From assembly GCF_009687865.1 (NCBI RefSeq), contig NZ_BLAE01000054.1, positions 1 to 64,000 of the forward strand: a DNA stretch of 64,000 nucleotides, written 5' to 3'. Made by a program: the position numbers and the translations under genes. Of the stretch, positions 40,376-63,739 are shown piece by piece (the first letter of the stretch is position 1; the number at the start of each line of letters is the position of its first letter). Under the pieces are notes generated by a model. That model did no database searches and was not told the origin of the DNA. It saw only the letters and a list, made by a program, of their open reading frames with translations. This stretch comes from Acrocarpospora macrocephala. Its GTDB lineage: Bacteria; Actinomycetota; Actinomycetes; Streptosporangiales; Streptosporangiaceae.

Positions 40376-40407
40376 TTCATGATCATAAATAGGAAGGTTC
40401 CAACGGC

Positions 40408-46165: not shown

Positions 46166-47542
46166 ATGTCCGTAAAGCTCGGATTGGTGGACCTGCGGGA
46201 CGCCGAATACTCCTATCTTGACGCGCGGGGGCACGTCTACCTCGATTACACGGGGTCAGGGCTGCCCTCGCGACACCAGATCCGCGCCCACGCCGAACGT
46301 GTCATCGGCGGATGCTACGGGAATCCGCATTCGGAGAATCCCACCTCCAGCGCGGCGACCGCGCTGGTGGATCGCACCCGGGCGGCCATCCTCGCCTATT
46401 TCAACGCCGCACCCGACGAGTACGCGGTGATCTTCACCTCCAACGCCACCGGCGCCTGCCGGTTGGTGGGGGAGGCTTACCCTTTCGGGCCGGACGCCCG
46501 GCTCGTGCTGACCAGTGATAACCACAATTCGGTCAACGGCATTCGGGAGTACGCGCGAGCGCGTGGCGCTGAGGTCACGGCCGTGGGCATGGTCAGCCCT
46601 GAGCTGCGAGTGGACGAAGGGGAACTGCTCTACGCGCTGGACGGGACCCGAGGGCTGCTCGCCTTCCCCGCGCAGAGCAACTTCACCGGAGTGCAGCATC
46701 CGCTTCGGTGGGTCACCGAAGCCCGGGCGCGAGGCTACGACGTGCTGCTCGACGCCGCCGCCTTCGTGCCCGCCAACCGCCTCGACCTCAGCGAGATCCA
46801 TCCCGACTTCGTACCGGTCAGCTGGTACAAAATCTTCGGCTACCCGACCGGCGTCGGCTGCCTGATCGCCCGCCGCGAGGCTTTGTCTCGACTTATCCGG
46901 CCATGGTTCGCGGGTGGAACGATCAAAGCCGTCAGCGCGTACGGCAACTGGCACGTCTTCAACGAGGATGAGAGCGCCTTCGAAGACGGCACCCTCAACT
47001 TCCTCTCCATCCCCGACGTCGAAATCGGCCTCAGCTGGATCTCGAGCATCGGCATCGACGCCATCCACACCCACGTCACCACCCTGACCGGCATCCTCCT
47101 CGACCGCCTCACCACCCTCCGCCACCGCAACGGCGCCCCCTTCGTCAGCGTCTACGGCCCCACCACCACCCGCGACCGCGGCGCCACCGTCACCTTCAAC
47201 TTCCGCACCCCCGACGGCGACATCATCGACGAACGCGACGTCGCCCGCTCCTCCGCCGCCGCCGGCATCTCCCTCCGCACCGGCTGCTTCTGCAACCCCG
47301 GCGCCGGCGAACGCGCCTTCGCCATCGACGAATCCCTCCTCGCCGGCCCCTACTTCCACGCCGACCTAACCCTCGACGACTACCTCCACGCCCTAGGCCT
47401 CCCCAGCGGCGGCGCCGTCCGCGTATCCCTCGGCCTAGCCTCCAACGCAGCAGACATCGACCGCTTCATCGACTTCGCAACAGCGAAATACCTAGACCGA
47501 GTCCCGGACTACGCAGATCTCGCCCCTCGCCTGCGTTGCTGA
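46166..47542 (+). CDS. Class V aminotransferase / molybdenum-cofactor-sulfurase-like PLP enzyme
   Basis: This protein of about 458 residues has the cysteine-desulfurase fold. The start is YLDARGHVYLDYTGSGLPS, PLP Asp/Lys segments are VLLDAAAFVPANRLDL and VPVSWYKIFGYPTGVGCLIAR, and the substrate-Cys loop is SLRTGCFCNPGAGE, characteristic of Mo-cofactor sulfurase N-terminal domains. The C-terminal MOSC domain of the eukaryotic enzyme is absent. Sulfur transfer from cysteine is the likely chemistry, but the acceptor is unknown. ATG 46166 has GGGGAG just upstream; ATG 46139 and GTG 46130 in the same frame are alternatives. Confidence 0.88.
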   Translation: MSVKLGLVDLRDAEYSYLDARGHVYLDYTGSGLPSRHQIRAHAERVIGGCYGNPHSENPTSSAATALVDRTRAAILAYFNAAPDEYAVIFTSNATGACRLVGEAYPFGPDARLVLTSDNHNSVNGIREYARARGAEVTAVGMVSPELRVDEGELLYALDGTRGLLAFPAQSNFTGVQHPLRWVTEARARGYDVLLDAAAFVPANRLDLSEIHPDFVPVSWYKIFGYPTGVGCLIARREALSRLIRPWFAGGTIKAVSAYGNWHVFNEDESAFEDGTLNFLSIPDVEIGLSWISSIGIDAIHTHVTTLTGILLDRLTTLRHRNGAPFVSVYGPTTTRDRGATVTFNFRTPDGDIIDERDVARSSAAAGISLRTGCFCNPGAGERAFAIDESLLAGPYFHADLTLDDYLHALGLPSGGAVRVSLGLASNAADIDRFIDFATAKYLDRVPDYADLAPRLRC

Positions 47543-47939: not shown

Positions 47940-48788
47940 CTAGAAGTGCCCGTCGGACGCCATCGACTGGGTGCCGATCACGTCGAGTAGGCGGAGCTTG
48001 TCGGCGGTGTCGGAGACTGGTGGGGCGGTGTAGACGACGAGGCGCAGGTCGGTGCCCGGCACGGTCAGGACGTCGCAATCGAGCGCGAGCGGTCCGACAT
48101 CGGGGTGGTGGATCGTCTTGGTGTTCATCACGTGGGTGCCGACCTCGTGTGAGGTCCACAGCGTGGCGAAGCGGGGGCTGGCGCGCCGCAGGTCGGCGAC
48201 GAGGGAGGTCAGGCCGGGGTCCAGGGGGTAGCGGGCGGTTACGGCCCTGAGGTCGGCGACTGCGGCGAGTTCGAACCTGGCTCCCTGCTCGGCTGAGTGG
48301 GTGATGCGGGTGGGCGCCTCGGTGAAGTGGCACCACAGCACGTTGCGCTCGCGGTCGCGCAGGCCGGAGGGGTCGCCGAGCAGCGCGGCGTACAAGCGGT
48401 TCCACGCGATCAGGGTCCAGGCCGCGTCAAACACGCTGACCGGGGTGCCCTCCATCTGGTCGAGCAGCCGCTGCGCGCTGGGCGTGAGGTGCGACGGCAT
48501 GCGATCGTTCGCGGGCGCGAGCCGCCCCGCCAGCAGGAACAGGTGCCGACGTTCCTGGTCCGACAGCCGCAGTGCGCGTGCCAACGCGGTGATGACCTGT
48601 TCGGACGGTGCCGTCGCCCGGCCCTGCTCGAGGCGGATGATGTAGTCCACCGACATGCCGGCCAGCTGGGCGACCTCCTCGCGCCGCAGCCCGGCCGCCC
48701 GGCGCGCGCGCCCGGCGGGAAGCCCGACCGCGACCGGGTCGATCCGGTCCCGCCAGCGGCGTAGCGCGGCGCCCAGCTCGTTGCTCAT
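47940..48788 (-). CDS. XRE regulator with MmyB-like ligand-binding domain
   Basis: This 282-residue regulator has an N-terminal helix-turn-helix (RRAAGLRREEVAQLAGMSVDYIIRLEQGRA) followed by the MmyB-type domain (VFDAAWTLIAWNRLYAALLGD, RYPLDPGLTSLVADLRRASPRFATLW, HPDVGPLALDCDVLTVPGTDLRLVVYTA). Such proteins often control a divergent SDR gene and sense fatty acids or similar ligands. That arrangement is seen here, with 102 bases between this gene and the SDR. ATG 48788 is preferred; the longer frame to 49109 is antisense. Confidence 0.92.
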   Translation of the reverse strand: MSNELGAALRRWRDRIDPVAVGLPAGRARRAAGLRREEVAQLAGMSVDYIIRLEQGRATAPSEQVITALARALRLSDQERRHLFLLAGRLAPANDRMPSHLTPSAQRLLDQMEGTPVSVFDAAWTLIAWNRLYAALLGDPSGLRDRERNVLWCHFTEAPTRITHSAEQGARFELAAVADLRAVTARYPLDPGLTSLVADLRRASPRFATLWTSHEVGTHVMNTKTIHHPDVGPLALDCDVLTVPGTDLRLVVYTAPPVSDTADKLRLLDVIGTQSMASDGHF

Positions 48789-48890
48789 TCGCCCACCATA
48801 TGGGTGGTGCGCACCCGACTGCCTGGTACCGCCGTTCCCAGGAAGAAGCAGACACTTCCTGCTCGTACGGGCGGCGCCCAGGCTGGGGGC

Positions 48891-49826
48891 ATGACGACGA
48901 CACTTGTCACCGGGGCGAACAGGGGGCTGGGCCTGGAGACCGCCCGCCGCCTGGTCCAGGCCGGGCACGAGGTGTTTCTCGGGGCCCGCGACGCCCGGCG
49001 GGGAGAGGCGGCCGCACGGCGGGCCGGTGGCCGCCCGCTGCTCCTGGACGTCACCAGCGACGACTCCGTGCGAGCGGCGGCGGACCGGGTCCGCGTGGCG
49101 GCCGGGCACCTCGACGTCCTGGTCAACAACGCGGGCGTGATCGGCTCCATCGAGTCAGCTGGCGAGATCACCGCCGCGGACATGCAGGCGTGCTTCGACA
49201 CCAACGTGTTCGGCGTGGTCCGGGTCACGCGCGCGTTCCTGCCGCTGCTCCAGCGGAGCCCGGCGCCCGTCGTGGTGAACGTCAGCAGCGGTCTTGGCTC
49301 GCTGGCCGTCGCGGCCGACCCCGACGCGTACACGGAGGTCGTGCCAGTCTGGGTCCCCGCGCTGGTCTACAGCGCCTCCAAGGCGGCGCTGAACATGGTC
49401 ACGGCGCAGTACGCACACGCATACCCGGCCATGCGGATCAACGCGGTCGACCCCGGGCACACAGCCACCGACTTCAACGGCCACTCCGGCGCGCAGACCG
49501 TGGCGGAGGGCGCGGAGATCATCGTACGCATGGCCATGATCGACAAGGAGGGCCCGACCGGTGGTTACTTCGCCGCGACCGGCCGCTTCCCTGGTAGTCC
49601 GATGCAACGAAAGGAATCCCGCGATGAACAAGCGCCGGGTCGAGATCGTGTTCGATGTCGCGTGCGTGCTTTCCTATCTCGTCTTCACCCGGTACAGCCG
49701 GGCCGCGCAGCGCTACCGCGAGAGTGGCGGCGAGGTCGAGACGGTCTTTCTCCCGTTCCAGCACCGGCCAGACGCCGATCCCGCTGGCGAGCCCCTCTTC
49801 GAGACGCACAAGCGCGACCGCGGTGA
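48891..49826 (+). CDS. Short-chain dehydrogenase/reductase with out-of-frame C-terminal extension
   Basis: This SDR has TGANRGLGLETARRL (cofactor Gly motif), VLVNNAGVIGS, and the catalytic Ser/Tyr/Lys in NVSSGLGS and LVYSASKAALN. It oxidises or reduces an unknown alcohol/ketone. After GGYFAATGRFPG the frame fails to stop and continues 75 residues with Arg-rich, non-native text, overlapping the next gene by about 200 bases. A stop (TAG 49595-49597) occurs one base out of frame, exactly where the family ends (RFPW). One missing C in the TTCCC tract would restore it, so a recent frameshift or sequencing error is likely. Confidence 0.8.
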   Translation: MTTTLVTGANRGLGLETARRLVQAGHEVFLGARDARRGEAAARRAGGRPLLLDVTSDDSVRAAADRVRVAAGHLDVLVNNAGVIGSIESAGEITAADMQACFDTNVFGVVRVTRAFLPLLQRSPAPVVVNVSSGLGSLAVAADPDAYTEVVPVWVPALVYSASKAALNMVTAQYAHAYPAMRINAVDPGHTATDFNGHSGAQTVAEGAEIIVRMAMIDKEGPTGGYFAATGRFPGSPMQRKESRDEQAPGRDRVRCRVRAFLSRLHPVQPGRAALPREWRRGRDGLSPVPAPARRRSRWRAPLRDAQARPR

Positions 49827-50226
49827 GGCCGCCGCGCGCGAGGTCCAGACCATGACAACCTTCGGCGCCGAGGACGGGCTGAAGGTGGACTTCGGGCGCG
49901 TGGTGTCGACCAACACCTTCGACGCCCACCGCCTCATCGCCCAGGCCGCCGCCCAGGGCCGCGGCGAACGGATGGCGGAGCGCCTGTTCCGCGCCTACTT
50001 CACCGACGCGCTCAACGTCGCCGACCACGACATCCTGGTGATGCTGGCCGAGGAAACGGGCGTACGGATGTCCGACGGCGGCGCAACAGAACTGCGCGCC
50101 GAGCTCGACCGCGTACGCGGGCTCGGCTTCACCGCCGACTCGGTCCCCGCCTTCCGCTTCGACACCGGTCTCACGCTCTCCGGCGAACAGCCGGAGGAGG
50201 CCTTCTTCGCCGCGTTCGAGGCCTAG
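49624..50226 (+). CDS. DsbA-family (FrnE-like) oxidoreductase
   Basis: This 200-residue thioredoxin-fold protein with the DsbA helical insert opens MNKRRVEIVFDVACVLSYLV and ends LTLSGEQPEEAFFAAFEA. The usual CPWC active site reads ACVLS, so only the first Cys is present and thiol-disulfide exchange may be impaired. FrnE-like proteins act in polyketide or stress pathways. ATG 49624 follows GAAAGGAATC. It ends in a convergent overlap (CTAG) with the CoA-binding gene. Confidence 0.85.
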   Translation: MNKRRVEIVFDVACVLSYLVFTRYSRAAQRYRESGGEVETVFLPFQHRPDADPAGEPLFETHKRDRGEAAAREVQTMTTFGAEDGLKVDFGRVVSTNTFDAHRLIAQAAAQGRGERMAERLFRAYFTDALNVADHDILVMLAEETGVRMSDGGATELRAELDRVRGLGFTADSVPAFRFDTGLTLSGEQPEEAFFAAFEA

Positions 50227-50723
50227 CGGCGGAGGGCCCATTCGACGGCGGGGCAGCGGTCCATGACTACCTCTAAACCTGCTGCTTGGGCGCGGCGGGC
50301 TGCGGGGATGTCGATGACGTTGAGGGGGAGCCAGACGGCTTTGGCGTGGATGGTGATTGCCTGGGTTATGGCTTCGGGGGCGTGGAGGGAGCGGCGGTAG
50401 ACGGCCACGACGTCTACGGGGGTGGGGATGTCGGTGAGGGTGGGGTAGCCCTTTTCGCCGAGGACGGGCTCGGCGAGGGGGTGCACGGGGATGATGGTCT
50501 TGCCGCGTTGCTGGAGGAGTCTGGCCTGGTCGTACGCGGTTCGGTCGGGGTTGTTGGCTAGTCCGACGAAGGCCCAGGTCTGGGTGTCGTGGAGGAGCCG
50601 CCGGATGACACCCAAGTCGGCGAAACGGTCTTCCATGGTCTCTGCAACATGCGGGATGTCGCGGAACATCCGGATTTCCGGGGCTATTTGGGTGCGGTAC
50701 AGCCCCTCTGGGGGGTTGGTCAT
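50223..50723 (-). CDS. CoA-binding domain protein (YccU-like)
   Basis: This protein of 166 residues has a Rossmann-like CoA-binding domain: WAFVGLANNPDRTAYDQARLLQQRG, PVHPLAEPVLGEKGYPTLTDIP, VDVVAVYRRSLHAPEAI, VWLPLNVIDIPAARRAQAAGLEVVMDRCP. It may be involved in CoA-persulfide or acyl-CoA sensing. The stop shares CTAG with the opposing DsbA-like gene. ATG 50723 is taken as the start; a frame runs on to 51050 but is low quality. Confidence 0.88.
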   Translation of the reverse strand: MTNPPEGLYRTQIAPEIRMFRDIPHVAETMEDRFADLGVIRRLLHDTQTWAFVGLANNPDRTAYDQARLLQQRGKTIIPVHPLAEPVLGEKGYPTLTDIPTPVDVVAVYRRSLHAPEAITQAITIHAKAVWLPLNVIDIPAARRAQAAGLEVVMDRCPAVEWALRR

Positions 50724-51183
50724 GATCCGGCCCCGGGGATTCCGGGGGCCGTTCGAGTCGCTGCGCCTCTGACGGCGTGTCAAACCCGATCGAAGCGGTA
50801 CGAGTCCGGAGAAGCCCTTGGTGGGACCTTCCGTGCACGTTGAGCGGTCAAAGGTGGCAATTCCCTCGTTGGGTGATTTCGTGAACGTTTCAGCAGGTCC
50901 TTCTTGTGGCTGTGTGCTGGCTCGTTCGACTTTTCCCGACTGTCCGTAGATCGCGCTTTCGTTCGCATATAATTGGACAAATAGATGGATGGCGATGTGG
51001 GTGGACTGCAAGATTGATCGAGAGTCAACCTGGTTGTGAGTAGCATTCATCTTCGGTTGGGTCGCAGGTCGGGGCCTGGTTCATGGCTTCACCCGTGATG
51101 TTTGCCCATACGTCATTGGTTGAATTTGTAACTAGGAACTCATCGGGTTATCCGGAATTCTCTCTGTAGAGGAAAGCAGGGAG
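50724..51183 (+). promoter_or_regulatory. Leader region of lanthipeptide operon with TATAAT element
   Basis: This 460-base intergenic stretch has lower GC than its surroundings and no convincing gene. A perfect TATAAT occurs at 50968-50973 without a strong -35 at 17-18 bases. It may be the -10 of the lanthipeptide transcript, giving a leader of about 205 bases. No obvious RamR-like direct repeats were found by eye. Confidence 0.35.
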
Positions 51184-53667
51184 ATGGCCGTGAATGACCA
51201 GTATGAGCTTTATTGCCTGGCGGATCGGCTTTTTTATGATTCGCCGGATAATCGGCAGTCGGAACATGCTGATTTCCCGGTAGCCGGCCGGGAGGTGCCG
51301 GTCGGGTGGGAGCATCAGCCGACCGACACGTGGATGCACTACGCGCCGGGTGTCCGGCAGATCGCGATGCAGGGCTGGAAGATTCACGTTTCGGCCCGGC
51401 TTGAAGACGCGGATCGGGTGCTGGGGGCGGTGTGGGACTACTGCGTGCCCAGGGACATCCCGTTCAAGTTCCTGCGCAGTGCGCCGGTTGTGACCATGCT
51501 CAACTCGAAAGCCGCCCCCCGGGGAGCAAGCGGCAAGCTTGTCACGATTTATCCGCATGAATCGGAGCTGGAGCTTGCGCTCAAGGAGCTCGATACGCTC
51601 CTGCGTGGCGTCGAAGGGCCGTACATCCTCAGCGACCTTCGCTACGCGGACGGGCCGCTGTATGTCCGCTACGGGGGCTTCGTCCCGCGCTACTGCCTTG
51701 ACGACAGCGGCGAGCAGGTTACCGCGATCGAGAACGCCGACAGCGAGCTCGTTCCCGACGTCCGCGGTCCCTCGTTCGTCGTTCCGCCGTGGGTTCAGTT
51801 GCCCGAATTCCTGAAGCCCCAACTCGAAGCTCGGAATGCGGTCACGACCGGCGGGTTGCCGTACGAGATCGAGGCGGTGATGCACTTTTCCAACGGTGGC
51901 GGGGTGTATCTGGGGTGGGATCGGCGTACCGGCGAGCGAGTGGTGCTCAAGGAGGCCAGGCCGCATGCGGGGCTGGACGCCGGCGGGCGGGATGCGGTGG
52001 CTCGGCTCCAGCACGAGCGGGACATGCTCCAGCGCCTGAGGGGCCTGGACGCTGTCCCGGAATATCGTGACTATTTCACCCTTGGCGAGCACCACTTCCT
52101 CGTCATGGAGTTCGTCGACGGGAATCCGTTGCAGCGCCAGCTGGTTCACCGCTATCCGCTGACGAGGGCCAACTGCTCGGCGGAGAGTCTCGCCGAATAC
52201 ACCGCGTGGGTTCTGGAGATGCTGCCCCGAGTCCGGGACGCGGTCGAATCGCTGCACCGGCGCGGCGTGGTCTTCGGCGACCTGCACCCCAACAACATCC
52301 TGGTCACCGAGACCGGTCGCGTGGTCCTCATCGACTTCGAAGTGGCCATGCCGGTCGAGGACCAGGGCCGTTCCCTGCTCGCTCACCCCGCCTTCCAGGC
52401 ACCCCCGAACCGCCGCGGCGCAGAGGTCGATCTCTACTCACTCGCCTGCCTCTGCTTCGGCCTGTTCGCCCCCCAAGCCACCATCATGCTCCCCCTGGCC
52501 AACAACAAGATCACCCAACTGGCCCACCTGATCACCACCACCTTCCCGGTCCCCCCAGAGATCATCACCACCGCCCTGCGAACCATCCAGGGCGCGAACC
52601 CTGACGCGGATGCGCTCTCCTTCAAGGCGACCGAGTGGCCGTCCGGCGCGGATGCGATGGTCCGGGCGATTCTGGCCACTGCCACGCCCGGTCGTCGGGA
52701 TCGGCTCTTCCCTGGAGATATCGCGCAGTTCCGCCCAGGAGGCGGCCTCAACTTCGCGCACGGCGCCGCCGGTGTGTTGTACGCGCTGGACGCAGCTGGA
52801 GCCGGGCGATACCCGGAATACGAGGACTGGCTGCTGGCCCGGGCATCACAACCCGCCCCTGGAACTCCGCTGGGTTTCTATGACGGATTGCATGGCATCG
52901 CCCACGCGCTCGATCGATTCGGGCACCGAGACATCGCGCTCGACCTGGTCGACCGCGCGATGCGCGAGGACTGGCGGCGACTGGACGCCGGCCTGTCCAC
53001 CGGCCTGGCCGGAATCGGGCTGAACCTGCTGCACCTCGGCCTGGACGCGCAAGCCGTCATCGAGACCTGCGCCGCCCGGCTACCCGACGACGTGCCCGAA
53101 CTAAGCGGTGGCTCCAACCCTCGGGCGGGGCTCATGCACGGTTCCAGCGGATCCGCGCTGCTGTTCCTGCACGCCTACGAGCACAGCGGCGACCACGCCC
53201 TGCTCGACCTGGCCGAACGCGCACTCCGACAGGACCTGCGGCGATGCATCCGCACCCAGGACGGTTCCCTCCAAGTGAACCAGGGCTGGCGGACATTGCC
53301 CTACCTGGAGGAAGGCTCGGTCGGGATCGCCCTCGTGCTGGACCGATTCCTCACCCATCGTCCCGACGAAGAACTGCGCGCCGACCTCGACGCGCTCCTG
53401 CTCGTCACCCGATGCGGCTACTTCGTGCAGCCCGGCCTGTTCGCCGGCCGGGCCGGACTCGTCCTCGCCGAACCGGATCTGATCCCCGGCCTGGACTGGC
53501 ATGCCCTTCCCTACCGGGACGGACTCGCGTTCCCCGGCGACCAGTTGCTCCGCCTCTCGATGGATTTCGCCACCGGGACCGCGGGCGTGCTGCTCGCCGT
53601 GAGCGGCGCTCCGCTCCCCTTCCTGCGACCGCCCGGCGAGCACACCGGTTCAGGGGCGCCCCTGTGA
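51184..53667 (+). CDS. Class III lanthipeptide synthetase LanKC
   Basis: This 827-residue trifunctional enzyme has an N-terminal phospho-Ser/Thr lyase domain (about 1-215) and a protein-kinase domain (about 225-500). In the kinase domain, GGGVYLGWDRRTGERVVLKEA is the glycine loop and VAIK-like lysine, and GVVFGDLHPNNILV is the catalytic loop, followed by VLIDFEVAMP. The C-terminal LanC-like cyclase has GLHGIAHALDRFG, STGLAGIGLNLLHLG and GLMHGSSGSALLFLHAYE but lacks the Cys-Cys/His zinc ligands, which marks class III rather than class IV. It phosphorylates and eliminates Ser/Thr in the precursors and closes the rings. GAAAGCAGGGAG precedes ATG 51184. Confidence 0.96.
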   Translation: MAVNDQYELYCLADRLFYDSPDNRQSEHADFPVAGREVPVGWEHQPTDTWMHYAPGVRQIAMQGWKIHVSARLEDADRVLGAVWDYCVPRDIPFKFLRSAPVVTMLNSKAAPRGASGKLVTIYPHESELELALKELDTLLRGVEGPYILSDLRYADGPLYVRYGGFVPRYCLDDSGEQVTAIENADSELVPDVRGPSFVVPPWVQLPEFLKPQLEARNAVTTGGLPYEIEAVMHFSNGGGVYLGWDRRTGERVVLKEARPHAGLDAGGRDAVARLQHERDMLQRLRGLDAVPEYRDYFTLGEHHFLVMEFVDGNPLQRQLVHRYPLTRANCSAESLAEYTAWVLEMLPRVRDAVESLHRRGVVFGDLHPNNILVTETGRVVLIDFEVAMPVEDQGRSLLAHPAFQAPPNRRGAEVDLYSLACLCFGLFAPQATIMLPLANNKITQLAHLITTTFPVPPEIITTALRTIQGANPDADALSFKATEWPSGADAMVRAILATATPGRRDRLFPGDIAQFRPGGGLNFAHGAAGVLYALDAAGAGRYPEYEDWLLARASQPAPGTPLGFYDGLHGIAHALDRFGHRDIALDLVDRAMREDWRRLDAGLSTGLAGIGLNLLHLGLDAQAVIETCAARLPDDVPELSGGSNPRAGLMHGSSGSALLFLHAYEHSGDHALLDLAERALRQDLRRCIRTQDGSLQVNQGWRTLPYLEEGSVGIALVLDRFLTHRPDEELRADLDALLLVTRCGYFVQPGLFAGRAGLVLAEPDLIPGLDWHALPYRDGLAFPGDQLLRLSMDFATGTAGVLLAVSGAPLPFLRPPGEHTGSGAPL

Positions 53668-53725
53668 CCGGACGCCGAGCGGCACCCGTACCGACTCGCA
53701 TCGCGAAGGAGGTGAACACGCGCAC

Positions 53726-53860
53726 ATGGTTCTTCTCGACCTTCAGGCCATGGAGGTGCCGGGTGGCTACGGCCACGGCCACGGCGGCGGCAGCACGCTG
53801 ACGCTGCTGGGCTGCCAGTCGAACACCCCCAGCAACCTGAGCCTTCTGCTCTGTCACTAG
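53726..53860 (+). CDS. Class III lanthipeptide precursor 1 (RamS/AmfS-like, 44 aa)
   Basis: The leader MVLLDLQAMEVP matches RamS/AmfS leaders and their LxLQ synthetase-recognition motif. Pro12 is the only leader proline. It is followed by a hinge GGYGHGHGGG and two ring motifs, STLTLLGC (S23, T26, C30) and SNLSLLLC (S36, S39, C43), separated by QSNTP, and a final His. Both motifs fit S/T-x2-S/T-x3-C, the labionin/lanthionine pattern. AAGGAGGT lies 12 bases upstream, a rather long spacing. Confidence 0.95.
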   Translation: MVLLDLQAMEVPGGYGHGHGGGSTLTLLGCQSNTPSNLSLLLCH

Positions 53861-53908
53861 AGCTCACGCATAACTCAATGAACCCCCCGATAAAGAAGGA
53901 GCACGACC

Positions 53909-54046
53909 ATGGTTCTTCTCGACCTTCAGGCGATGGAAGTTCCCGGCGGCGGCCACGGCCACGGCGGTGGCGGCGGGAGCACGCTGACCCTGCTCGGCTG
54001 CCAGTCGAACACGCCGAGCAACCTGAGCCTCCTGCTCTGCCACTAG
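53909..54046 (+). CDS. Class III lanthipeptide precursor 2 (paralogue, 45 aa)
   Basis: This is a second precursor with identical leader residues 1-12 and an identical 22-residue core from Ser24 to His45. Rings involve S24/T27/C31 and S37/S40/C44. Only the hinge differs: GGGHGHGGGGG instead of GGYGHGHGGG. Between the two genes all differences outside the hinge are synonymous (five in the leader, six in the core). AAGAAGGAGC precedes ATG 53909 at about eight bases. The genes are 48 bases apart. Confidence 0.95.
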   Translation: MVLLDLQAMEVPGGGHGHGGGGGSTLTLLGCQSNTPSNLSLLLCH

Positions 54047-54056
54047 CACGAGTCCC

Positions 54057-54087
54057 CGAGCCCTGAGCTGCCCCAGCTCAGGGCTCG
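54057..54087 (+). terminator. Attenuating hairpin after the precursor genes
   Basis: A perfect 14-bp stem, CGAGCCCTGAGCTG with CAGCTCAGGGCTCG, has a CCC loop. It lies 10 bases after precursor 2 and 24 bases before the first transporter gene, so it probably makes precursor mRNA more abundant than transporter mRNA. Confidence 0.85.
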
Positions 54088-54111
54088 GCCCTTCTGGAAG
54101 GAGAACCCCGG

Positions 54112-55737
54112 GTGCGTACCGCGGATCAGCTCGTGACCGGGGTGATCAGGCGCGGCGGGCCCGCTGTCGGGGTGCTGGCCGTGACCTCGGTGGTCGGGGG
54201 GGTGCTCGCGCTGGCCTTGCCGTACACGCTGGGCCGGACCGCTGACGCCCGTTCGGGGGGCTGGCTCGCGGTGAGCGTCGCGGTTGTCGCGTTGCTGGTC
54301 GTCTGTGACACGTTCGGGGTGTGGGCCGGGGGCGCGAGCGGGGCGCAGGCGTCGGCTTGGCTGCGGCATCGGCTGGTACGGCATGTGATAGGCGTCGGGC
54401 CGGGATTGACCCGGTCGATTCCGGAAGGCGATCTGGTGACCCGGATCGGGATGAACGCCGAAGAGGTCGGCCGTGCCCCGGATGCCGCGATCACCGGCGC
54501 CACGATGCTCATCCCGGCGGTGGGCAGCCTGGTGGCGCTCTTGCTCATCGATCCTTGGCTGGCGTTGACGCTGGTGGCCGGGCTCGCGGTCATCGTGCTG
54601 GTGTTGCGGACATTCCTTCGGGTTTCGACCGCGCTCGCGGGGGGCTATCAGGAGGCGCAGGCGGACATCGCCGCGCGGCTGGTCGACGCCGTCGCCGGGG
54701 CCAGGACCATCGCCGCCGCCGGGACCGCCGCGCAGGAGACGCGCCGCGTGCTGTCCGCGCTGCCCCAGGTGCGCGCGCACGCGCTGGAACTGTGGCGTGT
54801 CCGGGCCCAGGCGGGCGTGCAGGCCGCCGTCGTGATCCCCTTGCTGGAGGTTTGCGTGCTCGGCGTCGGCGGATTCCGCCTCGCCGCCGGCGACCTCACC
54901 ACCGGCGAACTGTACGCAGCCGCCCGCTATGTCGTCCTCGGCGCCGGCCTCGGCTCCGCCCTCGGCTACGTCAGCCAGGTCGCCCGCGCCCGCGCCGCCG
55001 CCCGCCGTATGGTCGCGCTTCTGGACGAATGCCCGGCCCTCCATGGCGTACGGCACCTGCCCGACGGACCCGGCGCCCTCACCTTCCACAACGTCATGGC
55101 CCCCGGCCTCACCATCCCCGACCTCAAGATCCCCGGCGGCACGGCCGTCGCCGTCGTCGGCCGTTCCGGCTCCGGCAAATCCCGCCTCGCCGCCCTCGCC
55201 GGACGCCTCACCGACCCGGTCGGCGGCGAGATCCTGCTCGATGACGTCCCGCTCACCCTCCTGTCCCGTACGGCGCTGCGGCAAGCGATCGGGTACGCCT
55301 TCGAGCGCCCCGCCCTGGTCGGGGACACGGTCGCCGACACCATCGGACCCTCGGCGGAGGAAGCCGCCCGCGCGGCGGGAGCGGACACGTTCATCCGGCG
55401 GTTCCCCTCCGGCTACGCCACCCCGCTGGCCGATGCACCCATGTCCGGCGGCGAACGGCAGCGCATCGGGCTGGCGCGTGCCTTCGCGCACGGCGATCGG
55501 CTGCTGGTGCTCGACGACGCCACGTCCAGTTTGGACACCATTACCGAGCATCAGGTGGGGGTCGCTCTGGCCGGGGACTCCCGTACCCGGCTGATCGTCA
55601 CCCACCGGACCGCCATGGCGGCCCGCGCCGACCTGGTCATCTGGCTGGAACGCGGCCGGGTACGCGGCTACGACCACCACGCCCGCCTGTGGCGCAACCA
55701 GGACTACCGATCCGTCTTCCAGGCGGAGGCGTCATGA
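54112..55737 (+). CDS. ABC transporter ATPase/permease (AmfB/RamB-like)
   Basis: This 541-residue half-transporter has six N-terminal membrane helices (about 20-300), then an ATPase with Walker A VVGRSGSGKSRLAALAG, signature MSGGERQRIGLARAFA, Walker B LLVLDDATSSLD and switch His in LIVTHRTA. All are intact. GTG 54112 follows AAGGAGAACCCCGG. It overlaps the second half-transporter by ATGA, predicting a heterodimeric exporter for the lanthipeptide. Confidence 0.94.
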   Translation: MRTADQLVTGVIRRGGPAVGVLAVTSVVGGVLALALPYTLGRTADARSGGWLAVSVAVVALLVVCDTFGVWAGGASGAQASAWLRHRLVRHVIGVGPGLTRSIPEGDLVTRIGMNAEEVGRAPDAAITGATMLIPAVGSLVALLLIDPWLALTLVAGLAVIVLVLRTFLRVSTALAGGYQEAQADIAARLVDAVAGARTIAAAGTAAQETRRVLSALPQVRAHALELWRVRAQAGVQAAVVIPLLEVCVLGVGGFRLAAGDLTTGELYAAARYVVLGAGLGSALGYVSQVARARAAARRMVALLDECPALHGVRHLPDGPGALTFHNVMAPGLTIPDLKIPGGTAVAVVGRSGSGKSRLAALAGRLTDPVGGEILLDDVPLTLLSRTALRQAIGYAFERPALVGDTVADTIGPSAEEAARAAGADTFIRRFPSGYATPLADAPMSGGERQRIGLARAFAHGDRLLVLDDATSSLDTITEHQVGVALAGDSRTRLIVTHRTAMAARADLVIWLERGRVRGYDHHARLWRNQDYRSVFQAEAS

Positions 55738-57392
55738 CATTTCAGCTGTTGTGGCGTTCTGTGGCGCGGGAACCGGGGCGGGCGTGGCGGCTGGCCGCGT
55801 GGTCGGTGGCGGAAGTGGCGCCGTCGTTCGTGGTCGGGCTGGCGTTGGCGGGGGCCATCGATGACGGGTTCGGGGGCGGGCGGCCCGAGGTCGGGGTGAT
55901 CTGGGTTGGAGTGCTGGGGTTGTCGTGGGTTGTCGCGGCGGTGGGGGCTAGGCAGGCCTTGCTGGCATTGGCCGGGATTGTGGAACCGTTCCGGGAGCGG
56001 TTGATCGCGGGGGTCGTGCAGGACGCCCTGGTCGGGGCGCGGGTGGAGGCGGCCGCGGTGACGCGGTCGAATCTGCAGGTGGAGGTGGCCAGGGACGCGT
56101 TCGCGACCGTGCTCGGGGTGCTGCGGTCGTTCGTGTTCACGCTGGTCAGCGTCGTGCTGGGGATGGCGGCGCTGATGCCCGAGGTGCTGGTGCTGGTGCT
56201 GCCGCCGATCGCGGCGGGGGTGGCGCTGTTCCTGCTGTCGTTGCCCGCGCTGGCCCGGCGGCAGCGGGAGTTCCTGATCGCCGATGAGCGGACCACCGAG
56301 GTGGTCACGATGGCGATGGGCGGGTTGCGCGATGTCGTGGCCTGCGGCGACGAGGAGCGTACGGTCGCGCTGGTCGGGCGCCGGATCGACGAGCAGGCGG
56401 CGGCGGCCCGGGCGCTCGCGCGGGTCACCGCCGTGCGGACGTTCTCGCTCGGACTGGGTGGCTGGTTGCCGGTGATGCTGGTGCTGGGCTTCGCGCCGGG
56501 GTTGGGGGCGAGCCCGGGTGTGGTCGTCGGAGTGCTGGCCGCCGTTGTCCAGTCGCTGACGCCCGCGCTGGGCGGATTAGTGGAAGGGCTCGGGGTGAGC
56601 GGAGTGCGGCTTGTGGTGACGTTGGAGCGTCTTTTGGGCAATCGACCGGTGGAGGGTCCGCAGCGGGTCATGCCGCCGGATGTACGGGTTGAGCTGTCGG
56701 GGGTGACATTTCGGTATGGGCCCCACGCGGACCCTGTTGTCGCCGGTCTCGATCTGGTTGTGGCGGAGGGGGAACATCTCGCGGTCGTCGGGCCCAGCGG
56801 GATTGGTAAGTCCACACTCGCGGCGCTGATCACCGGGCTGGTCCGGCCCGATGAGGGTGCGGTCACCGTCGGCGGAATGGCCGCGGATCGGGTGGATCCC
56901 GCCGCGCGCGTGCTCATCCCGCAGGAGGCGTACGTCTTTCGCGGGACGCTCTGGGACAACCTCACCTATCTGTCAGTCGCGTCCGCGTCCCGGGTCGACG
57001 GAGCCGTGGACGCGGTCGGTGCGCGGGAGCTGGTCGGACGGCTCGGCGGGTATCAGGCCGAGATCCATGCGGGGCTGTTGACCCCGGGGGAGCGGCAGCT
57101 GCTGGCCCTGGTCCGCGCCTACCTGTCGCCGACGCGGCTCACCATCCTGGACGAATCCACCTGCCATCTCGACTTGGCCGCCGAAGCCCGCGCCGAGCAG
57201 GCGTTCGCCCGCCGGGGCGGCACCCTGATCGTCATCGCTCACCGCCTCACCTCGGCCCTGCGCGCCCGCCGCATCCTCGTCATGGACGGCAGCACCGCCG
57301 TGTCGGGCACGCATGCCGACCTTCTCCGCACGTCTCCCCTGTATGCCGACCTCGCCGGACAGTGGGGTCCCGACCTGGAGAAAGTGTCATGA
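55734..57392 (+). CDS. ABC transporter ATPase/permease (AmfA/RamA-like)
   Basis: This 552-residue half-transporter has a membrane domain (about 20-310) and an ATPase with Walker A VVGPSGIGKSTLAALITG and Walker B LTILDESTCHLD. Its signature reads LTPGERQLLALVRAY instead of LSGGQ, so this subunit probably forms a degenerate site in a heterodimer. It starts in the ATGA of the first subunit and ends in an ATGA with the peptidase gene. Confidence 0.93.
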   Translation: MTFQLLWRSVAREPGRAWRLAAWSVAEVAPSFVVGLALAGAIDDGFGGGRPEVGVIWVGVLGLSWVVAAVGARQALLALAGIVEPFRERLIAGVVQDALVGARVEAAAVTRSNLQVEVARDAFATVLGVLRSFVFTLVSVVLGMAALMPEVLVLVLPPIAAGVALFLLSLPALARRQREFLIADERTTEVVTMAMGGLRDVVACGDEERTVALVGRRIDEQAAAARALARVTAVRTFSLGLGGWLPVMLVLGFAPGLGASPGVVVGVLAAVVQSLTPALGGLVEGLGVSGVRLVVTLERLLGNRPVEGPQRVMPPDVRVELSGVTFRYGPHADPVVAGLDLVVAEGEHLAVVGPSGIGKSTLAALITGLVRPDEGAVTVGGMAADRVDPAARVLIPQEAYVFRGTLWDNLTYLSVASASRVDGAVDAVGARELVGRLGGYQAEIHAGLLTPGERQLLALVRAYLSPTRLTILDESTCHLDLAAEARAEQAFARRGGTLIVIAHRLTSALRARRILVMDGSTAVSGTHADLLRTSPLYADLAGQWGPDLEKVS

Positions 57393-59350
57393 CCTACCCT
57401 GACGCGGAACGCCAGCCCATCGTGGATGTCATCCACGGTCACCGGATCGAAGATCCGTACCGGTGGCTGGAGGACCCGGACAGCCCGCAGACCGAGAAAT
57501 GGCTGGCCGCCCAGGACGATCTCTGGCGCACCCATTCGCTCCCCGCCCGGCCCCGCCTCCGCAACCGAATCGCCCAACTCACCGCAACGGGCGTCATCGG
57601 CACCCCCACCTGGCGAGGCGAGCGCGCCTTCCGCCTCCGCCGGGAACCAGGCCAGGAACACGCCATCCTCTATGTCGGCGTCCCAGATCAATGGGAGGCA
57701 TCCGGGAGGCTTCCCGGTCATATCGGGGAGATGGTGTGGCGGGTGGTGCTCGATCCGATGGTGGTGGATCCGGCGGGGACGACGACGCTTGACGATTGGC
57801 ATCCGTCGCCGGACGGGAAGCTGGTCACCGTGCAGCTTTCCCGGCGGGGGGAGGAACGGGCTCAGCTGTACGTGCTGGATGTGATGACGGGGGATGTTGT
57901 GGATGGGCCGGTGGGGGATTGCCGGTATTCGCCGGTGGCCTGGCTGCCCTCGTCGGACGCGTTCTACTACATCCGCGGGCGGATGGCTCACCTGCGGCGG
58001 CTTCGCGGGGACGATCTGGCGCTGGTTGAGGCGGATGGTCTGGCGTTGAGCGCCGACGGGCGATGGCTGACGCTTTCCGCCAATCGGGGGGCTGGTAATG
58101 ACATCCGGTTGTGCGACTTGGCGGGGCCGGAATGGCGGCAGGTGGAGGGCCGGGGCGCCAAGACGGCGGTGACCGTGGCGGCGGACGGGCGGCTCTATGT
58201 CGCGACGACGCAGGGAGCGCCACGAGTGCGGCTGGGCGTCGGCGATCCCGCTGATCCGAATGCCTGGCGGGATCTGGTGCCTGAGGATCCGCAGGCCGTA
58301 CTCACCGATTTCGCATTGATCGACGGCGCGCTGCTGGTGACGCGGATCCGGCACGCGATCGGCGAGATCAATGTTCACGACCCCGTGACCGGGGAGTGGA
58401 GAAGCGCGGTTCCGCTTCCCGGTCACGGTTCCATCGGGCGGATGTCCGCGAGTGGGCATCAGGTGTGGTTCACGTATGCGGATTACGTCACGCCGGAGAG
58501 TGTGTATCGGTATGACGTCCGGACCGGGCAGACCACGCTGTGGGAGCCCGCGCCCGGCCGCGCCGACCTGCCGGAGGTCGAATCCCACCAGATCGAATAC
58601 CCGTCCGCCGACGGCACCCTGGTGCGCATGGTCGTGCTCTCCGGCCCGTCCACAGGCCCTCGACCCTGCATCTTGTACGGCTACGGCGGATTCGGTGTCC
58701 CGCTCACTCCGGCCTATTCGAGCTATGTCCTGCCCTGGATAGAAGCCGGGGGGATTTTCGCCTTCGCTCAGATCCGCGGCGGGGGCGAAGAAGGGGAAGA
58801 CTGGCACCGCGCCGGCACCCTCGACCGTAAACAGAACGTCTTCCATGACTTCGCCGCCGCCGCGGAAACCCTGATCACCGGGCGCTGGACCACGCCGGAC
58901 CGCCTGGGCATCTGCGGCGAATCCAACGGCGGCCTCCTCGTCGGTGCCATGCTCACCCAGCGCCCCGACCTGTTCGCCGCCGCCGTCTGCTCCGCGCCCG
59001 TCCTCGACATGGCCCGCTACGAACTCTCCGGCCTCGGCCCCCGCTGGCGCGCCGAGTACGGCTCCGCCAGCGACCCCGACGCGATCGCCTGGCTTCTGCG
59101 TTATTCCCCGTATCACCACGTACGCGAGGGGGTCCGATATCCCGCCACGCTCTTCACCGTCTTCGGGGGCGACACCCGGGTAGACCCCTCACATGCGCGG
59201 AAGATGTGCGCTGCTCTGCAACACGCCACCGCCGGGCCCCGTCCGATCCTTCTCCGCCACGAATCCGATGTCGGCCATGGCGCCCGCGCGGCCAGCCGAT
59301 CCATCGAATTGGCCGCCGACATGCTGGCCTTCTTCACCGCCCATCTCTAA
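57389..59350 (+). CDS. Prolyl oligopeptidase (S9A), likely leader peptidase (FlaP-like)
   Basis: This 653-residue cytosolic S9 enzyme has a seven-bladed propeller (about 70-400) and a C-terminal alpha/beta-hydrolase domain. Catalytic Ser lies in ICGESNGGLL, Asp in FGGDTRVDPSHARK, and His in SDVGHGARA. ILYGYGGFGVPLTPAYSSY is the usual oxyanion/entry segment. No signal peptide is seen, so it acts inside the cell. Its start overlaps the second transporter (ATGA), tying it to the lanthipeptide operon. FlaP in flavipeptin biosynthesis is the known parallel; Pro12 in both leaders is the predicted cut site. Confidence 0.94.
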   Translation: MTYPDAERQPIVDVIHGHRIEDPYRWLEDPDSPQTEKWLAAQDDLWRTHSLPARPRLRNRIAQLTATGVIGTPTWRGERAFRLRREPGQEHAILYVGVPDQWEASGRLPGHIGEMVWRVVLDPMVVDPAGTTTLDDWHPSPDGKLVTVQLSRRGEERAQLYVLDVMTGDVVDGPVGDCRYSPVAWLPSSDAFYYIRGRMAHLRRLRGDDLALVEADGLALSADGRWLTLSANRGAGNDIRLCDLAGPEWRQVEGRGAKTAVTVAADGRLYVATTQGAPRVRLGVGDPADPNAWRDLVPEDPQAVLTDFALIDGALLVTRIRHAIGEINVHDPVTGEWRSAVPLPGHGSIGRMSASGHQVWFTYADYVTPESVYRYDVRTGQTTLWEPAPGRADLPEVESHQIEYPSADGTLVRMVVLSGPSTGPRPCILYGYGGFGVPLTPAYSSYVLPWIEAGGIFAFAQIRGGGEEGEDWHRAGTLDRKQNVFHDFAAAAETLITGRWTTPDRLGICGESNGGLLVGAMLTQRPDLFAAAVCSAPVLDMARYELSGLGPRWRAEYGSASDPDAIAWLLRYSPYHHVREGVRYPATLFTVFGGDTRVDPSHARKMCAALQHATAGPRPILLRHESDVGHGARAASRSIELAADMLAFFTAHL

Positions 59351-59437: not shown

Positions 59438-59911
59438 TCATGCGCTGGCGATCTCGAACCAGACCTTGTTTCGACCGGCTTCGCGGACCATGCCCCAGCG
59501 GGCTGAGAGTGCGTCCAACAGGGGGAGGCCGCGACCGCTGGATCCGTTCGGGATGGAATGGCCGGCGCATGGTGGGCTTGCCGATCCCTCGTCCTGGACG
59601 CAGACGCGTACCCGGCCACGGGGAAATGTCACGGTCACCGTGAATTCGCCCCCGTCGCCCGACCGGGAGTGCACCACCGCGTTGGTGGCGATCTCGCTGG
59701 TCAGTAACACACAGTCATCATGCAAGGGGTGATCACGGCCAAGTGTCGCCGACACCAACCGGCGGGCTTGAACCACCTGATCCCGCCCTCCGGACAGCCG
59801 CGCCTCGACATTCCCAGTCGCGGGGACAGCGGAGGCGGTCCCTCCTGTCGCTCCAGGTGTGGCATTCCTGATAGTAGTGGTGCTTCCCATCTCGTTCCCC
59901 GACCCGTTCAT
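59438..59911 (-). CDS. HATPase_c_2 ATP-binding protein (anti-sigma-factor-like)
   Basis: This 157-residue protein has a GHKL-type ATP-binding domain: ARRLVSATLGRDHPLHDDCVLLTSEIATNAVVHS (N box), VRVCVQDEGSASPP (G1) and GRGLPLLDALSARWGM (G2). It belongs to the large actinobacterial group related to RsbW/SpoIIAB, which regulate sigma or other proteins by phosphorylation or ATP-dependent binding. AGGAGGGG stands three bases before ATG 59911. It is convergent with the peptidase gene, and its partner is not in the window. Confidence 0.9.
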   Translation of the reverse strand: MNGSGNEMGSTTTIRNATPGATGGTASAVPATGNVEARLSGGRDQVVQARRLVSATLGRDHPLHDDCVLLTSEIATNAVVHSRSGDGGEFTVTVTFPRGRVRVCVQDEGSASPPCAGHSIPNGSSGRGLPLLDALSARWGMVREAGRNKVWFEIASA

Positions 59912-60474: not shown

Positions 60475-60963
60475 ATGACGGCTCGACTGAGCTGGGCGGT
60501 TGACGCGCTGGATATCGTCCCGACTGATCATATACTCGAAATCGGCTGCGGCAGCGGCACGGCGGTGTCGCTCATCTCCTCGAAGCTGACGACAGGCAAG
60601 GTCGTGGCCCTTGACCGGTCCCCGAAGATGATCGCCCTTGCCGAGCGGCGCAACCATGATGCGGTGACGGCCGGGAAGGCAATATTCCGCACTGCCGATT
60701 TCGAGAATGCGGACTTCGTCGGCGAACAATACGACAAGATCCTGGCGGTAAACGTCAACCTCTTCTGGGTGCGTCACCCAACCCACGAGATGGCCCTTAT
60801 CGAGAAACTGCTCAAGCCTGAGGGCTTCTTCTTCCTGTGTTACGAACCTCCATCAGGCCGAGCCCCCGCACTCTCCGAGAAGCTTCTCACCCATCTGAAA
60901 CCCTTCACCGTCGATGTCACGACGAAAGCGCCTGACCTGATCGGTTTCAAGATCTCTGTCTGA
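60475..60963 (+). CDS. Short SAM-dependent methyltransferase
   Basis: This 162-residue class I methyltransferase has motif I HILEIGCGSGTAVSLI, motif II VVALDRSPKMIALAERR, and a motif IV-like region YDKILAVNVNLFW. KLLKPEGFFFLCYEPP follows. It is shorter than most small-molecule methyltransferases (about 200-280 residues), with little N-terminal cap. Substrate is unknown. AGGAACG lies just upstream of ATG 60475. Together with the preceding small protein it forms a compact, slightly lower-GC unit that may be a recent arrival. Confidence 0.85.
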   Translation: MTARLSWAVDALDIVPTDHILEIGCGSGTAVSLISSKLTTGKVVALDRSPKMIALAERRNHDAVTAGKAIFRTADFENADFVGEQYDKILAVNVNLFWVRHPTHEMALIEKLLKPEGFFFLCYEPPSGRAPALSEKLLTHLKPFTVDVTTKAPDLIGFKISV

Positions 60964-61054: not shown

Positions 61055-62170
61055 TTACTGGAGTTCTCGGGTTGTTTCTGTGATGAGTTCGTCAATGACG
61101 TCGGGGAGGTGGCCGGTGGTGGTGAGGGTGCGGTGCTGGCGGTGGGAGGAGGTGCCGGTGGAGAGGAGGTGGGAGGCGAGGTAAGAGATCTCTTCCCAGT
61201 CGCCCAGGTCTTTCAGGGCTTCTTGGGTGTAGTGGAGGAAGCGGTCGAGCATGGCGGGGGCGGGGAGTTTCTCGGAGGTCATGGGGTCGATGAGGTCGGC
61301 GGTCAGGCCGGAGCGGGCGGCGCGCCAGGTGGCGGCTTTGATCATGGGTGGAGAGGTGCGGACCGGGGGGCGTTCGGCCTGGATTTCGTCGATGCAGGTG
61401 AGGACCAGGGCTCTGGCCAGGCCGGCGAGGAGGACGGTCTCGTCGATGGTGGTGCACGCGTCGGCGATGCGGAATTCGAGGGTGGGGTAGCGGGTGCCCA
61501 GCCGGGCGTCCCAATACAGGTTGCCCATGTCGGTGAGCGCGTCGCTGTCCAGCAGTTGGCGGACATGCTCGGCATAGGCCGCATGGGACTCGAAGAGGGG
61601 TGGCGGACCGCCGATGGGAAATCCCGCCCAAAGGGGGTTCCGGAAGGATTGGTAGCCGGTGTCGGCGCTGTCGTAGAAGGGGGAACTGGCCGAGATGGCC
61701 AGGAACATGGGGAGCCAGGGTTGGACGCGGTTGAGGACCTGGACGGCGAGCTCCTGGTCGGCGATGCCGACGTGCACGTGGCAGCCGCAGGTGACCCGGC
61801 GCTGGACCACATCGCGATAATGCTCGAAACACCGGTCATACCGAGGTTTTCGCACGAGCCGGGTGGTTCGCCAGTCGGCGGTGGGCATCGTCCCGGCGGA
61901 GAGCACGGAGAGCCCGGCATCTGAGGCCATCTGGGTGAGCGTGCCCCGGAGTTTCCTGAGTTCGGCCCGGAGTTGCCGCAAGCTGTGACACACGTCGGTT
62001 CGTGTCTCGACCGTGGCCAGATGGAATTCGTGGTCGTATCCGTGATAGGTGCCAGGCACGGTGGGGCTCATGGCGAGTAGGGCGCCCATATTCGGGAGCC
62101 CTTCCGGCGCTAGCATTCGGCTCACCGGATCAACAATGAAGAACTCTTCTTCCACTCCCATCGTGAGCAC
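61055..62170 (-). CDS. YbdK-family carboxylate-amine ligase (GCS2)
   Basis: This 371-residue protein opens with TMGVEEEFFIVDP, the hallmark glutamate-cysteine-ligase-2 start, followed by GYDHEFHLATVETRTDVC, VTCGCHVHVGIADQE, RYPTLEFRIADACTTIDE and a C-terminal ATP-grasp-like region. YbdK proteins ligate glutamate to amines with ATP, and some have weak gamma-glutamylcysteine activity. GTG 62170 and ATG 62161 are both possible starts. It is not linked to the neighbours by operon structure. Confidence 0.93.
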   Translation of the reverse strand: MLTMGVEEEFFIVDPVSRMLAPEGLPNMGALLAMSPTVPGTYHGYDHEFHLATVETRTDVCHSLRQLRAELRKLRGTLTQMASDAGLSVLSAGTMPTADWRTTRLVRKPRYDRCFEHYRDVVQRRVTCGCHVHVGIADQELAVQVLNRVQPWLPMFLAISASSPFYDSADTGYQSFRNPLWAGFPIGGPPPLFESHAAYAEHVRQLLDSDALTDMGNLYWDARLGTRYPTLEFRIADACTTIDETVLLAGLARALVLTCIDEIQAERPPVRTSPPMIKAATWRAARSGLTADLIDPMTSEKLPAPAMLDRFLHYTQEALKDLGDWEEISYLASHLLSTGTSSHRQHRTLTTTGHLPDVIDELITETTRELQ

Positions 62171-62348: not shown

Positions 62349-63608
62349 CTATTCTCGTAGCGCCTCGGCTCGGCGGCGGAACAGGCTCCGCTCGCGCTCG
62401 TTACGGGTCAGCCCGGCGGCTCGCTCGAACTCCTTCCGGGCCTCCGCCGTACGCCCCAGCCGGGCCAGCAGGTCCCCGCGCACGGCAGGCAACTGCGGAT
62501 ATTCCCGAAGCGCCTTCTCCGCTCCCAGCCCTTCGACGATCTCCAACCCTCGCCCAGGCCCGTACGCCATGCTCACCGCCACCGCGCGGTTCAACTCCAC
62601 CACCGGTGACGGCGCGACATGACCGAGAACCAGATACAGCGCGGCCATTCGCTCCCAATCGGTGTCCTCCGCCGACATCGCCCTGGCGTGACAGGCGGCG
62701 ATCGCGGCCTGCAGGCCGTACGGGCCTAGCGTGCCGAGCGACTCGGCGCGCTGCAGGGCGGCGAGGCCGCGGCGGATGAGTAGCCGATCCCAGCGTCCAC
62801 GGTCTTGATCGAGGAGCAGGACGGGTTCGCCGCCTGGGCCGGTGCGGGCCACGATGCGGGACATCTGGAGTTCCATCAAGGCGACCAGCCCGTGCACTTC
62901 CGTTTCGGACGGCATCAAACCCACCAGGATTCGCCCGAGCCGCAATGCTTCCTCGCACAGCGACGGGCGCATCCAGTCGTCTCCGGTGGTCGCGGCGTAA
63001 CCTTCGTTGAAGATGAGATAGATCACCTCCAGCACCGAAGCCAGCCGCGCGGGGAGCTCTCCCGGAGGGGGCAACTCGATCTTGATGTGCTTGTCGGAAA
63101 GGGTGCGTTTGGCGCGGAAGATTCGCTGTCCGACGGTCGGTTCGGGGACCAGGAACGCGCGTGCGATCTCCTCGGTGCTCAACCCGCCGAGCAGCCGGAG
63201 CGTCAGGGCCAGCCGTCCTTCCGTGGACAGCACCGGATGGCAGGCCGTGAACAGCAGCCGCAGCATGTCATCGCCGAACGGATCATCGAGCATGTCCACG
63301 GTTTCGGTCTCGACGTCCGCCTGCTGCCGTACCTGATCGCGGCCGAATTCTTTGAGTTTCTCCTCATATCGACTGCGGCGCCGGAGCATGTCGATGGCGC
63401 GGTGTTTGGCGGTGAGGGTGAGCCAGGCCCCGGGATTGTCCGGAACTCCCGATTGCGGCCACTGCTCCAGCGCGATGACCAGCGCGTCCTGCGCCAGCTC
63501 TTCGGCCAGCCCGATGTCGCCCACGATCCGGGCCAGCCCGGCGATCACTCGTCCGGCTTCCATCCGCCAGACCGCCTCGACCACCCGATGCGGGTCGCTC
63601 CCCGTCAT
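62349..63608 (-). CDS. ECF sigma factor with long C-terminal domain (ECF42 type)
   Basis: This protein of about 419 residues has a sigma-2 region (AEELAQDALVIALEQWPQSG, AIDMLRRRSRYEEK), a sigma-4 region (STEEIARAFLVPEPTVGQRIFRAKRTL), and about 230 extra residues of TPR-like helices (IYLIFNEGYAATTGDDW, ALYLVLGHVAPSPVVELNRAVA, LARLGRTAEARKEFERA). This is the ECF42 layout, known to be encoded beside DGPF (YCII-related) proteins, one of which is next door. ATG 63608 is chosen; an earlier TTG 63638 is in frame. Confidence 0.92.
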   Translation of the reverse strand: MTGSDPHRVVEAVWRMEAGRVIAGLARIVGDIGLAEELAQDALVIALEQWPQSGVPDNPGAWLTLTAKHRAIDMLRRRSRYEEKLKEFGRDQVRQQADVETETVDMLDDPFGDDMLRLLFTACHPVLSTEGRLALTLRLLGGLSTEEIARAFLVPEPTVGQRIFRAKRTLSDKHIKIELPPPGELPARLASVLEVIYLIFNEGYAATTGDDWMRPSLCEEALRLGRILVGLMPSETEVHGLVALMELQMSRIVARTGPGGEPVLLLDQDRGRWDRLLIRRGLAALQRAESLGTLGPYGLQAAIAACHARAMSAEDTDWERMAALYLVLGHVAPSPVVELNRAVAVSMAYGPGRGLEIVEGLGAEKALREYPQLPAVRGDLLARLGRTAEARKEFERAAGLTRNERERSLFRRRAEALRE

Positions 63609-63739
63609 ACCGGTCGATCCAAGCACGTCGAATCGCAAAACACGATGTCGGTTGATTAAAACCGTTCTGTCGATCAGGGGGTGAAAAGGGAACGACCCCG
63701 GCCGAATGCTGGAGGTCGAAGTCCCGGGATACCGAACGA

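Follow-up and report, generated by a model that had tools for sequence, protein, structure and literature searches.

A probable flavipeptin-type class III lanthipeptide locus with a clustered prolyl oligopeptidase in Acrocarpospora macrocephala

Class III lanthipeptide clusters of Actinobacteria are described in passages of PMC7268733 as usually lacking a protease gene. This makes it of interest which enzyme serves as the leader protease and how such an enzyme senses cyclisation of its substrate. The window analysed here, a stretch of 64,000 nucleotides from Acrocarpospora macrocephala (contig NZ_BLAE01000054.1, positions 1 to 64,000), contains an operon with the layout of the ram/amf loci for SapB-like morphogens, to which a gene for a prolyl oligopeptidase (POP) has been added. 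The question raised by this locus is whether the POP is the leader protease of the pathway or a passenger in an ordinary morphogen operon, and to which of the known systems the locus belongs.

Six genes on the forward strand, encoding LanKC, two precursors, two ABC half-exporters and the POP, form one operon according to the translation of the window (Table 1). A sequence-only reading had proposed these six genes, and translation together with family models placed all of them where it had put them. The gene order LanKC, precursor, ABC, ABC, which had been likened to ram/amf, was confirmed, and the ATGA overlaps described for the last three genes (ABC 1, ABC 2 and POP) were read directly at 55734-55737 and 57389-57392. 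The locus is genuine and complete. A chance arrangement is spoken against by the occurrence of the two-precursor operon in all five of the Acrocarpospora genomes searched. Among the neighbouring genes between 46130 and 63638, no evident member of the pathway was identified. At 37919-40465 on the minus strand, the window also encodes a glycoside hydrolase family 16 domain fused to three F5/8 type C (galactose-binding) stretches.

Table 1. Features of the operon and its surroundings, in positions of the window.
Feature	Position	Strand	Description
Class V aminotransferase	46130-47542		upstream of operon
MmyB-like regulator	47940-49109	-	upstream of operon
Short-chain dehydrogenase frame	48804-49826		upstream of operon
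CoA-binding protein	50223-51050	-	upstream of operon
LanKC	51184-53667	+	827 aa; class III lanthipeptide synthetase with RamC_N lyase-type N-terminal region, kinase and LanC-like cyclase
Precursor 1	53726-53860	+	44 aa; NF033212, PF19402
Precursor 2	53909-54046	+	45 aa; NF033212, PF19402
RNA hairpin	54056-54088	+	15 base pairs, 3-base loop; from folding against shuffles
ABC exporter half 1	54112-55737	+	541 aa; membrane domain and ATPase; PF00664, PF00005
ABC exporter half 2	55734-57392	+	552 aa; PF00005
POP, FlaP-type prolyl oligopeptidase (S9)	57389-59350	+	653 aa; PF02897, PF00326
HATPase-domain protein	59438-59911	-	downstream of operon
Methyltransferase	60475-60963		downstream of operon
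GCS2-type protein	61055-62170	-	downstream of operon
Sigma factor	62349-63638	-	downstream of operon

For LanKC, a score of 1046 bits was obtained with the class III LanKC model NF038151 (cut-off 575), by which the proposed class III operon was borne out, and the score with the class IV LanL model, 383 bits, lies below the cut-off of 650. The domains PF25816, PF00069 and PF05147 were identified in the protein, which also matches solved LanKC structures, 8sao among them. The same genome encodes a second LanKC/LanL-like synthetase with 34% identity to LanKC (L002, on G000:C42, minus strand, with a frame that is open at the end of the locus). In the cyclase part of this second protein, C-H-G and W-C-S-G stretches were seen by eye to resemble the zinc-ligand motifs of class IV.

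The two precursors of the window are near-identical. Both contain the leader MVLLDLQAMEVP and the core STLTLLGCQSNTPSNLSLLLCH, the start of the core being set by inference, and the spacer between them reads GGYGHGHGGG in precursor 1 and GGGHGHGGGGG in precursor 2. Precursors 1 and 2 score 59.1 and 60.9 bits with the SapB/AmfS model NF033212 (cut-off 25), and 55.6 and 56.8 bits with the RamS model PF19402 (cut-off 24.3). Their description as SapB/AmfS-type precursors was upheld by these values, which are well above the cut-offs. A leader proline, P12, is located 11 residues ahead of the first core Ser in precursor 1 and 12 residues ahead of it in precursor 2.

The POP carries a propeller domain and a peptidase domain and matches the structure 2bkl with an E value of 2.7e-125; no signal sequence was evident by eye. 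For 2bkl, which we take to be a Myxococcus xanthus-type POP, S533, D616 and H651 presumably form the catalytic triad, and S512, D595 and H630 of the window POP were found aligned with these residues when counted on the alignment. The motif of the window POP is GESNGG, with Glu511 directly ahead of S512. An unlinked POP was also identified in the genome (L007), which is 55% identical to the operon-linked one and carries GGSNGG instead.

Related loci were collected in several sets. The first set of 61 consists of the window and of 60 loci picked by hand from a family-wide table of LanKC matches; a POP gene lies directly downstream in 38 of them, two loci end at a contig edge and 21 are without a POP. 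Twenty POP regions were fetched besides, which gave five more POP-linked loci, making 43 with the 38 of the first set, and 15 unlinked POPs. A named set comprises the best 80 loci of a contig scan with a LanKC alignment, its species overlapping with those of the first set. Among these best 80 loci listed, the nearest relatives of the window LanKC are those of Acrocarpospora corrugata, A. phusangensis and A. catenulata. At E<=1e-80, 218 of 341 genomes of Streptosporangiaceae gave a LanKC match, and at E<=1e-180, 37 of the 394 genomes of a class-wide draw did so. The same gene set was identified in many Streptosporangiaceae as well as in Kribbella, Jiangella, Nocardioides, Microlunatus and Labedaea.

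In the POP-linked loci, the precursors are of one type. P12 was present in all 58 precursors of the 38 POP-linked loci of the first set, as was the core motif S-x-[LV]-[ST]-x3-C-x-S-x2-P-S-[NGA]-[LIV]-S-x3-C-H, and both were found again in 62 of 62 precursors from the 52 POP-linked loci of the named set. For the 21 loci without POP, 31 precursors were obtained from 20 loci, the precursor filter having found none in L098. P12 was identified in 21 of these 31 precursors and the POP-linked type of core in a single one (L070). P12 alone therefore needs no POP. In the nearest POP-less group, many of the other cores are SNLSLLGCTPHENSSLSLICG or a close variant of it. The sequence-only reading had staked its proposal on the precursors not being missing from close relatives that keep the rest of the operon; among the POP-linked loci of the first set, all 38 yielded precursors. 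The filter found no precursor in one of the five further POP-linked loci and in 9 of 31 Kribbella/Jiangella loci, each with only 1.5 kb of flank.

The number of precursor copies ranges from one to four across the POP-linked loci. In Streptosporangium and its kin (L047-L050, L053 and L128), the precursor gene occurs in three or four tandem copies whose cores are near-identical. The Gly/His repeats of the spacer were considered as a trait that defines the family and were rejected, with His present in the spacer of 38 of the 58 POP-linked precursors of the first set; in many Nonomuraea loci the spacer is AASDVASGG or similar.

For the operon-linked POPs, the catalytic Ser, Asp and His were found to be kept in 43 of 43, and the residue ahead of the catalytic Ser is Glu in every one of them. 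Among 17 unlinked POPs, picked by hand from the table of POP matches, this residue is Gly in 16 and Gln in one. GESNGG or GESGGG was read in every linked POP of the named set (52 of 52) and of Kribbella and Jiangella (31 of 31), and a search of the genus Kribbella gave a POP match at E<=1e-170 in 37 of 38 genomes. In a tree of 60 POPs, the 43 operon-linked ones are located on one side of a branch with a support of 100/99. The window POP forms one group with the POPs of Kribbella flavida (100/99), which supports its proposed identity as a FlaP-type peptidase.

In a LanKC tree, the window protein grouped with both copies from K. flavida at a support of 100/98. This group consists of 27 rows, 25 of them with a linked POP. 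In another LanKC tree, calculated with a quick method, the POP group contains 47 rows, 43 of them with a POP. At the level of sequence comparison, common descent of the window locus with the flavipeptin locus was shown. The proposal of an unstudied family of SapB-like peptides was rejected: the same gene set is present in many genera, trees of LanKC and of POP join the window to K. flavida, and FlaP of this organism has been characterised biochemically (passages of PMC10885120 and PMC8960859). Since the POP and the precursor motifs share one ancestry, their association does not represent many independent events.

Four of the 47 rows of the POP group in the quick LanKC tree are without a linked POP (L055, L072, L054 and L070). 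Two of them, L055 and L072, end at contig edges. In the genome of L055 (G144), a GESNGG POP was identified near the start of another contig, and in the genome of L072 (G248), the POP found is of the GGSNGG kind only. L054, which is the same locus as L131, derives from Planomonospora sp. ID67723, and its LanKC is nested within the POP group. Its operon contains no POP, the genome shows a GGSNGG POP only, and its precursor has the core STVSLLLCSHHDSTLSAVC, with neither P12 nor the POP-linked core motif. L054 represents a natural case in which the POP and the precursor type were lost jointly, and supports a tie between the two. L070 speaks against a strict tie of this kind. Here, P12 and the core motif are kept in the absence of a linked POP, the reading frame of the exporter matches is interrupted, and the sole POP found in the genome (G290) at E<=1e-60 is of the GGSNGG kind.

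With high probability, the class III lanthipeptide locus of the window is of the flavipeptin type, SapB/AmfS-like, and its POP takes off the leader after cyclisation. Ring type, cleavage site, order of steps and role are drawn here by analogy with flavipeptin and SapB. LanKC would recognise the LLDLQ leader and dehydrate Ser and Thr residues of the core, and would then form a lanthionine or labionin ring in each of the two stretches S-x2-T-x3-C and S-x2-S-x3-C. With both rings closed, the FlaP-type POP would most likely cut after the leader Pro12 in the cytoplasm, and by analogy it should prefer the modified, cyclised peptide over the linear precursor. For a peptide cut at this site after the loss of four waters, the calculated [M+H]+ is 3079.46 for precursor 1 and 3030.44 for precursor 2, and 2243.13 for the fully trimmed core of either. 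The Gly/His-rich spacer would probably be trimmed by a general aminopeptidase, and the two-part ABC exporter would secrete the product. A hydrophobic peptide with a surface-active or signalling function is the most likely product, for which SapB suggests a morphogen-like role.

That the locus is a plain SapB/AmfS morphogen (ram/amf) locus with the POP as a passenger, the leader being removed by general proteases encoded elsewhere, is considered improbable. This explanation can draw on a gene order which equals that of ram/amf apart from the POP, on the 21 first-set loci that keep the rest of the operon without it, and on the frequent presence of P12 in precursors without a linked POP; in addition, several class III leaders are reported in passages of PMC10885120 to be cleaved by AplP-like M1 proteases. 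However, translation of the POP is coupled to that of the exporter, the POP has been kept in one clade over long divergence with its catalytic residues and the Glu marker intact, and the window POP belongs to the POP group of K. flavida.

An even smaller chance is given to a POP that cuts twice, after the leader P12 and after the invariant Pro between the rings of the core, so that two one-ring peptides are formed. A core with Pro-Ser ahead of ring 2, as found in 58 of 58 POP-linked precursors versus 1 of 31 others, would be in line with this, but common descent explains the association equally well, and the core Pro directly precedes the first Ser of ring 2, which makes it a hindered site. 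In addition, FlaP is described in passages of PMC10885120 as cutting the leader at Pro(-12), efficiently in the modified precursor only with the rings in place. It is just as little to be expected that a POP acting on both prolines would be helped in recognising the modified peptide by the Glu before the catalytic Ser.

Between the last precursor gene and the first exporter gene, a hairpin with a perfect 15-bp stem was identified (z -3.76; none of 200 shuffles folds as well). In 58 of 60 rows, whether they have a POP or not, the 90 bases after the last precursor include 11 or more paired bases in a row; these stretches are G+C-rich and were counted without shuffle comparison. For L099, the place of the hairpin is not followed by an exporter gene. 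The hairpin may tune or limit the expression of the exporter, or may protect the precursor mRNA.

The sequence-only reading had further emphasised the lack of a RamR-like regulator gene. This stood for the locus of this genome, as a tblastn search with one regulator as query found no RamR-like gene in the window between 47184 and 63000, but it fell as a trait of the group. In 32 of 43 POP-linked loci, counting a weak match of 35% in L053, a RamR-like response regulator is encoded next to the operon on the other strand, and a RamR-like gene adjoins the operon in 17 of 23 rows without a linked POP. The 11 POP-linked loci with no RamR-like gene in the stretch read are the window, four other Acrocarpospora, three Herbidospora, and L052, L061 and L073. 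Judged from these neighbourhoods, the absence is a local loss or move. In the genome of the window, 111 matches to one regulator query were obtained; a quick, poorly resolved tree placed each of the best three apart from the regulators that accompany the most closely related operons.

By these results, a large set of ram-like loci from Streptosporangiaceae is tied to flavipeptin, whose clustered POP has been studied biochemically. Within a genome, the lanthipeptide POP can be distinguished from further POPs by the GESNGG marker and the paired core motif. Whether the POP truly acts as the leader protease, and by what means it senses cyclisation, can now be tested directly. As additions to a known system, the Glu marker, the paired core motif and the natural loss case are modest; they were not met in the passages of the literature consulted, and no first report is claimed. 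A literature search for Acrocarpospora together with lanthipeptide found no paper.

Compared with other class III systems, a POP gene is also common to the LanPB clusters of Streptococcus pneumoniae and to the clusters of Brevibacterium, both of which are likened here by published description. According to passages of PMC7268733 and PMC5719810, the LanPB clusters, however, also encode a CAAX protease, and in Brevibacterium the similarity to flaP is weak and a leader Pro is present in only one of six predicted precursors. With the ram/amf loci of Streptomyces (SapB, AmfS), the window shares the order LanKC, precursor, ABC, ABC and precursors that fit both the SapB/AmfS and the RamS model; passages of PMC13380574 served as the source of the ram/amf layout, and the loci of S. 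coelicolor and S. griseus were compared by description. The window differs from them in the additional POP, in the absence of an adjacent ramR, and in a core with S-x2-T-x3-C as the first ring motif and a Pro ahead of the second. Since no RamR-like gene was found between 47184 and 63000, the window was filed by its precursors and LanKC and not as a full ram/amf locus.

The closest known system is the flavipeptin locus (FlaKC, FlaA, FlaP) of K. flavida, the flavipeptin strain being DSM 17836 (passages of PMC5719810). A correlation of FlaP and FlaA in Amycolatopsis and Jiangella, and an earlier co-localisation in Kribbella and Streptomyces, are mentioned in passages of PMC8960859. In K. flavida (G703), two complete flavipeptin-like clusters were identified, L234 and L235, each with its own POP; the comparison covers both, and either may be the published FlaA locus. 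Their precursors end in STLTVLGCGSAKPSNLSLLLCH and STLTVLGCGSQRPSNLSLLLCH. For L235, P12 lies 12 residues ahead of the first core Ser, which would fit Pro(-12) if the core starts at this Ser. The window combines the traits of the flavipeptin type, namely the descent of LanKC, a clustered POP with the corresponding descent and catalytic residues, and a leader proline about 12 residues before the core. Its LanKC is 62% and its POP about 56% identical to the K. flavida proteins, and the core pattern STLTxLGCxSxxPSNLSLLLCH, the leader P12, the GESNGG POP and two ABC genes are shared. In contrast to K. flavida, for which one precursor was found per cluster, the window has two precursors, it has no RamR-like gene next door, and its POP gene follows the exporter genes, whereas the POP gene of Kribbella is located ahead of the ABC genes. 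The loci of Kribbella, Jiangella, Labedaea, Nocardioides and Microlunatus have the order LanKC, precursor, POP, ABC, ABC, with GESNGG POPs and the same core pattern, one Microlunatus core having PSGLS in place of PSNLS.
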